NCBI RefSeq assembly: GCF_000060345.1
Contig: NC_008571.1
Coordinates: 3,166,501-3,230,500 of the forward strand
DNA from: Christiangramia forsetii KT0803
GTDB taxonomy: Bacteria > Bacteroidota > Bacteroidia > Flavobacteriales > Flavobacteriaceae
Direction: 5' to 3'
DNA length: 64,000 nucleotides
Under the pieces are notes generated by a model. It ran no database searches and was not told the origin of the DNA. It saw only the letters and a list, made by a program, of their open reading frames with translations. The translations under genes were made by a program, and so were the position numbers. Position 1 is the first letter of the stretch; each line of letters begins with the position of its first letter. Shown here piece after piece: positions 16,086 through 57,552 of this stretch.

Positions 16086-16159
16086 CGGTCTGGACGAGAC
16101 TCGAACTCGCGACCCCCTGCGTGACAGGCAGGTATTCTAACCAACTGAACTACCAGACC
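16086..16159 (-). tRNA. tRNA-Asp (GTC)
   Basis: The minus strand folds as a full cloverleaf: acceptor GGTCTGG/CCAGACC, D-arm with AGTTGGTTAGA, anticodon stem CCTGC/GCAGG with loop CTGTCAC giving anticodon GTC, and T-arm GCGAGTTCGAGTCTCGT. The discriminator is G, the identity base for Asp. The CCA end is not encoded. It stands alone and is followed by its own terminator. Confidence 0.95.
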
Positions 16160-24076: not shown

Positions 24077-24122
24077 CCCACTTATTAATAACCGGGGTCG
24101 AGAACCCCAAAATTTAATTTTT

Positions 24123-38818: not shown

Positions 38819-39295
38819 TTATTCTCTCCAGATCTCGATCACGTCAAACTTAACAGTTCCATTTGGAACTTCGATTTCGGCAGTATCCCCAACTTTCTTT
38901 CCTAGAAGACCTTTTCCTATGGGAGAATCTACTGAAATTTTTCCCGATTTAAGATCGGCTTCACTCTGTGCAACTAATTTATAGGTCATTTCTGCCCCAT
39001 TCGTTTGATTTTTGATCTTCACATGAGAATGTACCAACACTTTAGAAGTATCTAATTGCGATTCATCTATTACTCGTGCATTGGCAACAACTTCTTCCAT
39101 TTTAGAAATTTTCATTTCCAACAGGCCCTGAGCTTCTTTTGCGGCGTCATACTCGGCATTCTCACTCAAATCTCCTTTGTCTCTAGCCTCTCCAATTGCT
39201 TCAGAAGCTTTTGGTCGCTCTACATCTTTAAGATGATTTAATTCATCTCTAAGCTTTTTTAACCCTTCAGGGGTATAATAAGATACTTTACTCAT
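38819..39295 (-). CDS. greA: Transcription elongation factor GreA
   Basis: GreA (158 residues) rescues backtracked RNA polymerase by stimulating RNA cleavage. The coiled coil has ARDKGDLSENAEYDAAKEAQ with the acidic tip, and the FKBP-like end has SPIGKGLLGKKVGDTAEI. A consensus promoter is 193 bases upstream with a terminator-like hairpin right at the start of the predicted leader, so expression may depend on readthrough. Confidence 0.96.
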   Translation of the reverse strand: MSKVSYYTPEGLKKLRDELNHLKDVERPKASEAIGEARDKGDLSENAEYDAAKEAQGLLEMKISKMEEVVANARVIDESQLDTSKVLVHSHVKIKNQTNGAEMTYKLVAQSEADLKSGKISVDSPIGKGLLGKKVGDTAEIEVPNGTVKFDVIEIWRE

Positions 39296-39456
39296 AACTT
39301 TATCGTTTTAATATTTCGCGGCCAGTGGATTAGAGCCTCTGGAGCCGGAAAAATACCTTATAATGATTCTATTAATAATTGAATTCCTGAATGCGGAATT
39401 GCCCGGATCAAAAGTTTTTGGCTCTCCGGGTATAAACTATTGTATCATTAACTGAA

Positions 39457-39481
39457 AAAATCCCATTTCTAACGGGATTTC
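39457..39481 (-). terminator. Terminator-like hairpin in the greA leader
   Basis: On the minus strand AAATCCC / GGGATTT (loop GTTAGAAAT) is followed by six T. It lies only a few bases downstream of the predicted transcription start and about 160 bases upstream of greA. Transcripts stopped here would be about 30 nucleotides long. There is no gene upstream on this strand for which it could be an ordinary end. Confidence 0.6.
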
Positions 39482-39487
39482 TTTAAA

Positions 39488-39518
39488 CAAATGTAAGAAA
39501 TTTAATCTTTCGGAACAA
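39488..39518 (-). promoter_or_regulatory. Promoter upstream of greA
   Basis: On the minus strand TTG (39516-39518), 20 bases, then TACATTTG (39488-39495): a good Bacteroidota consensus. The predicted start is near 39481, directly before the hairpin. Confidence 0.6.
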
Positions 39519-39549
39519 TTATATTATTTTCGTTCCAACTCAATATTCT

Positions 39550-39978
39550 ATGAAAAAATTTTTAAGCTTACTAGTTGTTTTTATTGTTATTACAGCTTGT
39601 TCCGGATCTGATGATGAAATTCGAAATAATCCAAATTTGCCCGATCTAAATTTTAGATTTCAACTGAATCTTAGTTTCCCAGAATATAATGATCTTCAAT
39701 TTCCAGGAAATTCTTATGCCACTACTAACTATGGGATTAGAGGTGTGGTAATCTACAATATTAATAACTCACAATACACGGCTTTTGAACTTAGTGATCC
39801 CAATCATCCACCAAGTAACTGTTCAGGGATGACCGTTAATGGCGTAATCGCTACCTGTGGTTGTGAAGGGAATCAATATAATGTAATTACCGGAGAACTT
39901 GTAGAAGGGGATGGTCAATACACCATGAGACCTTACCGCGTACAGCGATCTGGCAACCAATTACAGGTTTTTAATTAA
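39550..39978 (+). CDS. Small lipoprotein with a Rieske-like fold, ligands altered
   Basis: The lipobox VITACSGS gives an acylated Cys at residue 17. The rest resembles the family of small Bacteroidota proteins with a Rieske-type fold: GIRGVVIYNINNSQYTAFEL, then DPNHPPSNCSGM, then ATCGCEGNQYNVITGE. Normal Rieske proteins have CxH and CxxH boxes; here the first reads DPNH and the second TCGCEG, with no His, so a 2Fe-2S cluster is unlikely. The role is unknown. It is divergent from greA, and shares its 3' hairpin with the TonB receptor gene. Confidence 0.65.
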   Translation: MKKFLSLLVVFIVITACSGSDDEIRNNPNLPDLNFRFQLNLSFPEYNDLQFPGNSYATTNYGIRGVVIYNINNSQYTAFELSDPNHPPSNCSGMTVNGVIATCGCEGNQYNVITGELVEGDGQYTMRPYRVQRSGNQLQVFN

Positions 39979-46823: not shown

Positions 46824-47168
46824 CTATTCTTTAGACTCATCTAGATCATCTTCTTCAATCCAGTTACCATCCTGATCGATAAAAACCTTTTCGGTCTCAC
46901 CTTTCACATCCAGTTTAAGCTTGTAAACTTTCAAATCGCCTTCGCTCTTTACCCAGGCTTCAGAAGCAACCGCTCCATTATAATCTGTCATCACAGCATC
47001 TTTCACAGCTTGCGGTAATGCCATCACTTCAACAGAAGCAAATTCTTCCTGCTCCACTTCCATTTCCATTTCAGTCTCTACCTCTACTTCTTCCACTTGT
47101 GCGTGAAGATTATTAGTAGCAAAAAACATAGCTCCAATGGTCATAATACCTAATGCAATCTTTTTCAT
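46824..47168 (-). CDS. Small secreted protein, PepSY-like
   Basis: A 114-residue protein with a signal peptide (LGIMTIGAMFFATNNLHA), an extremely Glu/Val-rich stretch (VEEVEVETEMEMEVEQEE), and a domain LPQAVKDAVMTDYNGAVASE..VYKLKLDVKGETEKVFIDQDG that resembles PepSY-like/BLIP-like domains of Bacteroidota. It is periplasmic or surface exposed. The acidic repeat may bind cations. Function unknown. Confidence 0.75.
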   Translation of the reverse strand: MKKIALGIMTIGAMFFATNNLHAQVEEVEVETEMEMEVEQEEFASVEVMALPQAVKDAVMTDYNGAVASEAWVKSEGDLKVYKLKLDVKGETEKVFIDQDGNWIEEDDLDESKE

Positions 47169-57390: not shown

Positions 57391-57552
57391 TTCATAAATA
57401 ATGTCTTATACTCCTACTCATAAGGCTTTTCGGTTACGCCCCGTTTAAAATGGTCACTGGACTCCAAAGACGAATTTATATCAAAAAAGCTTTCGTTTTA
57501 CACGCAACAGTTAATTTTTTTGATTGCTCTTAAAGTATCATAAACTAATAAA

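Follow-up and report, generated by a model that had tools for sequence, protein, structure and literature searches.

A terminator-like hairpin directly behind the greA promoter in Bacteroidia: a probable attenuator resembling GraL in layout

Organization of the greA locus

The window, that is, the whole 64,000-nucleotide stretch analyzed here, belongs to the 3.8-Mb, single-contig genome of Christiangramia forsetii KT0803 and carries greA on its minus strand (38819–39295; ATG at 39295). The gene encodes a protein of 158 residues with the GreA_GreB_N and GreA_GreB domains and the catalytic loop GDLSENAEY, in which the acidic pair of E. coli GreA (D41/E44) is present (residues matched by eye). 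A preliminary description of this DNA had proposed, on the minus strand, a promoter consisting of TTG, 20 bases, and a box, followed by an AAATCCC/GGGATTT hairpin with six T about 160 bases ahead of greA. Indeed, the minus strand from 39518 to 39454 reads TTG-N20-TACATTTG-TTTAAA-GAAATCCCGTTAGAAATGGGATTTTTTC, and all of these elements lie where they had been placed. The TTG (39516–39518, −33 element), conserved in the study genus, precedes by a spacing of 20 bases a −7 box TACATTTG (39488–39495) that exactly matches TAnnTTTG, the sigma-A consensus of Bacteroidota (PMC7366714, PMC9723704); judged by these elements, the promoter ahead of greA is of the σA type. In F. psychrophilum, TAnnTTTG spans −12 to −5 (PMC9723704), and this placement predicts a transcription start at an A (39483, minus strand), a hairpin beginning at about +3, and a terminated RNA of about 29 nt.

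Behind the −7 box, six bases (TTTAAA) lead into a predicted hairpin, GAAATCCCGTT-AGA-AATGGGATTTT (39457–39481, minus strand), with an 11-bp stem and a 3-nt loop. Its T6 tract (39455–39460) pairs in part with the run of A in the 5′ arm, and the whole span of hairpin and T6 (39481–39455) ends 159 bases ahead of greA. The 28-nt hairpin region has a predicted folding energy of −10.6 kcal/mol (z, −3.86), and none of 200 shuffled sequences was equally stable. The next gene upstream (39550–39978, plus strand), encoding a 142-residue putative lipoprotein as inferred from its signal sequence and giving no Pfam match, points away from greA and is preceded by its own probable −7 box, TATTTTCG (39525–39532, plus strand; one mismatch to TAnnTTTG). 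Since this neighbor is divergent, the window terminator serves no other gene, as the preliminary description had maintained. A generic promoter and terminator scan of the window found neither the greA promoter nor the hairpin, because it searched for promoter hexamers of the E. coli type and looked for a tail only past the stem, which holds most of the T run.

Conservation of the layout

greA was present in 98 of 99 genomes in the relatives search and in 148 of 149 genomes sampled from the class, and 139 greA upstream regions from 63 families were usable. In a strict scan, which demanded that a terminator-like hairpin start no more than 22 nt from a TAnnTTTG-like box, 112 of the 139 loci were positive, representing 52 of the 63 families of the class Bacteroidia, in contrast to 12 of 209 intergenic regions that carry such a box upstream of other genes (Fisher p ~4e-50, a value that treats related genomes as independent, the family count being the more honest figure). 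The control set was drawn from 464 kb of DNA of the window and of relatives rather than from whole genomes; within it, 39 of 717 TAnnTTyG sites (greA included) were followed by any terminator-like hairpin. Thus, the comparison among relatives that the preliminary description had suggested finds the hairpin in the same position throughout most of the class. The median spacing was 4 nt from box to stem and 38 nt from stem to ATG, and TAnnTTyG itself occurred within 420 bases upstream of greA in 132 of the 139 loci. By eye, the layout can also be recognized in most of the 27 loci missed by the scan, where loops are longer or the box is degenerate, whereas it appears truly lost in at least five (L033, L078, L098, L111, and L132). 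At L078, L098, and L132, no recognizable promoter–hairpin pair precedes greA, and in two of them the upstream gene closely precedes greA; these apparent losses are possible natural tests of the attenuator.

Neither of the two GreA/GreB-family paralogues of the window genome has the box or the hairpin, and among seven paralogue regions of relatives, one (L196) shows a box followed by a weak hairpin. On these sequence comparisons, the promoter–hairpin layout is specific to greA. Several loci outside the class also have a hairpin and T tract before greA; they were left uncounted because an upstream gene ends nearby in some. At six of these outside loci (L177, L178, L182, L184, L187, and L190), greA is preceded by strong GTAAAGTCAGC/GCTGACTTTAC terminators, several of which directly follow a TACATT-like box. 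It is possible that the layout extends beyond Bacteroidia.

Terminator signature and position relative to greA

Hairpins were also picked with no T criterion, in 119 of the 139 loci. In the eight bases behind the stem core of these hairpins, the fraction of T was 0.75 against a background of 0.33, with A on the other side at 0.47. Across the class, the hairpin is predicted to start at about +1 to +10, with about 0–2 nt of RNA before it at the median spacing. A stem at the extreme 5′ end of the predicted mRNA stands where stems that shield a message from 5′ decay act, and the often weak stems (about three G–C pairs in Flavobacteriaceae) would suit such a role. A purely stabilizing hairpin that causes no termination is nevertheless improbable, because the T tract, so clearly enriched on one side, would be superfluous for protection. 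The signature points instead to an intrinsic terminator at the beginning of the greA transcript.

In 111 of the 112 positive loci, no exact TAnnTTTG was found between the hairpin and the start codon, so that the only visible greA promoter precedes the terminator; in 17 loci with a divergent neighbor, fewer than 60 nt separate the hairpin from the ATG. The neighbor is divergent in 54 of the 112 loci (23 of them in the study genus), where no other gene could consequently use the terminator. The upstream gene is codirectional in 56 of the 112 loci, its stop codon lying a median of 14.5 nt before the −7 box, and there the hairpin may end the upstream gene as well. These 56 loci are what recommends the view that the hairpin belongs to the upstream gene, as nothing more than its 3′ terminator, with the greA promoter in front of it by chance. 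As a general explanation, this is very improbable in the face of the 54 divergent loci and of at least three loci (L055, L058, and L060) in which, by eye, a separate terminator stands ahead of the promoter. At the window locus, it is ruled out by the divergent neighbor.

Promoter, hairpin, and T tract would also make up a complete tiny transcription unit, and GraL, the greA leader of E. coli, acts in trans too (PMC6829880). We nevertheless regard a stand-alone gene for a trans-acting small RNA, with a separate greA promoter further down, as very unlikely: the 111 loci with no second exact box and the median gap of 38 nt leave such a promoter unseen, and the leader sequence is unconserved between families, contrary to what a shared trans-acting RNA would need. 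A terminator on greA's own transcript, placed between its promoter and its start codon, accommodates these observations better.

Joint divergence of the hairpin arms

Within the study genus, the stem pairs do not vary and hence carry no information on structure. Between families, on the other hand, the arms are unrelated (AAATCCC/GGGATTT, AATCTCG/CGGGATT, AAATCCTC/GAGGATTT, GAGAGTCCCGC/GCGGGATTCTC, and AACGCC/GGCGTT). Outside Flavobacteriaceae, the two arms of a locus paired at 98% of core positions, a figure biased upward by the selection of hairpins for pairing; the fairer measure is the swap test, in which randomly exchanged arms paired at 51% and never above 60% in 1000 shuffles. These results show that the arms diverged together. 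Alignment A3 shifts three stems (L029, L038, and L050) by one column, and pairs were therefore counted on hairpin-anchored arms, a procedure that leans towards pairing. Within Flavobacteriaceae, the stems show CG/UG/UA and GC/GU exchanges, and G–U pairs are common (at one position in 23 of 24 study-genus genomes), which argues for RNA rather than a DNA operator. On the leader of the study genus, RNAalifold returned the terminator stem and otherwise fragments only. An operator for a dimeric repressor just behind the promoter, although the palindrome occupies the classical position (+1 to +25) and its pairs do not vary in the study genus, is scarcely credible, given arms that differ wholly between families but remain complementary, frequent G–U pairs, and a T tract on one side only.

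Comparison with known leaders

The arrangement had been called GraL-like in the preliminary description, with the suggestion of early termination in a phylum far from E. coli. The layout is indeed real, class-wide, and greA-specific, and the sequence comparison supports early termination in a greA leader of such a distant phylum; a close kinship with GraL (Rfam RF01769) was not supported, as there is neither an Rfam match nor the pre-hairpin segment of about 19 nt. Common to both are an intrinsic terminator, recognized by sequence, between promoter and greA, and the expectation of a short leader RNA. In E. coli, the hairpin starts 22 nt past the −10 box and has the tail AT7, with about 19 nt of RNA before it that are needed for full autoregulation (PMC6829880), whereas Bacteroidia leaders, with their median box-to-stem gap of 4 nt, have no counterpart to this segment. 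The promoters also differ (Bacteroidota sigma-A here, sigma-70/sigma-E for GraL), and an array of short leader RNAs formed by imprecise termination is a feature of E. coli. The RF01769 covariance model (Enterobacteria greA leader) scored 127.5 bits on the E. coli locus as a positive control and gave no match in the window or at five Bacteroidia greA loci; a search of Rfam at the greA leader, at the gathering threshold and at E up to 5, returned nothing meaningful. Thus, the Bacteroidia leader is, by its sequence anatomy, GraL-like but outside the family RF01769.

Attenuators of greA/rnk were predicted in Proteobacteria, bacilli, and Clostridia by Naville and Gautheret in 2010, this gene family being seventh in their attenuation ranking (PMC2965389), and Bacteroidetes are absent from the main text of that paper. 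These attenuators share with the present leader a 5′ terminator ahead of greA, found in many lineages, but the examples given have antiterminators, for which the Bacteroidia leader has no room. Closer in this respect is the rimP-leader of the same study, a short terminator with no visible antiterminator before rimP-nusA-infB, for which feedback by a polymerase-bound factor was proposed (PMC2965389); it differs in the gene and in its stem, GGGc/gCCC, which is conserved, unlike the freely varying greA stems of Bacteroidia. Our literature search, incomplete in coverage, found no paper on a greA leader terminator in Bacteroidetes, and an earlier description is possible.

A model for the attenuation of greA

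Collectively, the best explanation is attenuation of greA by a promoter-proximal intrinsic terminator that is GraL-like in its working, and we consider this likely from sequence and conservation. Transcription of greA would begin at the sigma-A promoter, and the first transcribed bases would encode the terminator; polymerase leaving the promoter would synthesize about 25–40 nt and, on reaching the U tract, either release a very short leader RNA or read through into greA. It is quite likely, again from sequence and conservation, that the terminator sets the share of initiations that become greA mRNA. This suggests that Bacteroidia, as E. coli, limit GreA through many transcription attempts aborted at about 30 bases.

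What would govern the choice between release and read-through is constrained by the position of the hairpin. Starting at about +3 in the window and at a median of 4 nt from the box over the class, it leaves no room for upstream RNA forming a competing antiterminator structure; lying at the RNA 5′ end, it likewise leaves no space for a translated leader-peptide ORF. With no antiterminator and no ribosome yet involved, the decision would have to rest with polymerase and its bound factors. GreA itself would be the most economical signal, since it acts on promoter-proximal backtracked polymerase; in E. coli, Gre factors relieve sigma70-dependent backtracked pauses 10–20 bp from promoters (PMC7876045). 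More active GreA would then make termination more frequent and so complete a negative feedback loop, as in E. coli, where GreA amplifies GraL termination and cleavage-active GreA is required (PMC6829880). The E. coli effect was seen in vivo and not in vitro, and it needs an unidentified extra factor or is indirect (PMC6829880). By this analogy, negative feedback of GreA on its own leader is a fair conjecture in Bacteroidia, on which we would not quite rely; the feedback could run in either direction, and a strong promoter damped constitutively, with no feedback, also fits the sequence evidence.

More tentatively still, a minimal terminator in the first bases of a transcript might be a direct sensor of Gre activity, terminating or allowing escape as polymerase exits the promoter, and needing neither antiterminator nor ribosome nor ligand; the same circuit might have arisen independently in several phyla, the study genus adding a second layer by a downstream structured RNA. 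The interest of the Bacteroidia leader lies in its simplicity. For E. coli GreA autoregulation, an accessory factor has been invoked and pre-hairpin sequences complicate the picture, whereas in more than 100 sampled species of Bacteroidia the transcript begins, in a stripped-down version, with hairpin and U tract alone. Should this leader prove to terminate transcription and to respond to GreA, one could test directly what the circuit minimally requires, and it would be a clear case of one gene's regulatory layout recurring in distant phyla with no shared sequence.

Spacer of the study genus and other elements of the window

In the 24 study-genus genomes, the spacer from terminator to ATG measures about 150–165 nt. 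In the window, it holds a putative three-way junction, P1/P2/P3 (model R1; 39353–39454, minus strand), and a further predicted stem-loop, P4 (39310–39357, minus strand). A model of its first 103 positions had one match in its own genome and none in 119 other sampled genera of the family. Fold predictions give a moderate stability (mean z, −1.7); pairing survives sequence change in P3 and, with less clarity, in P2, and P1 barely varies. Overall covariation was only slightly above that of shuffled sequences, and for this reason we do not claim a three-way junction. The spacer may be a genus-specific regulatory RNA, which we offer as a lead from modeling and not as a result.

Directly before the greA ATG, at 39296–39311 (minus strand), and in many Flavobacteriaceae, there is a conserved AAACGATRAAGTT-like sequence and no Shine–Dalgarno sequence; the former is possibly a translation-initiation signal. 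Elsewhere in the window, Rfam matches were obtained for the S16-Flavobacteria ribosomal protein leader (24084–24118, plus strand), a DUF805 RNA (57407–57472, minus strand), and a tRNA (16086–16159, minus strand). In addition, the minus-strand ORF starting at 47168 has a terminator-like hairpin (GAAAAGGCTCCTTTTGGAGTCTTTTC) beside a degenerate TAnnTTTG-like box.
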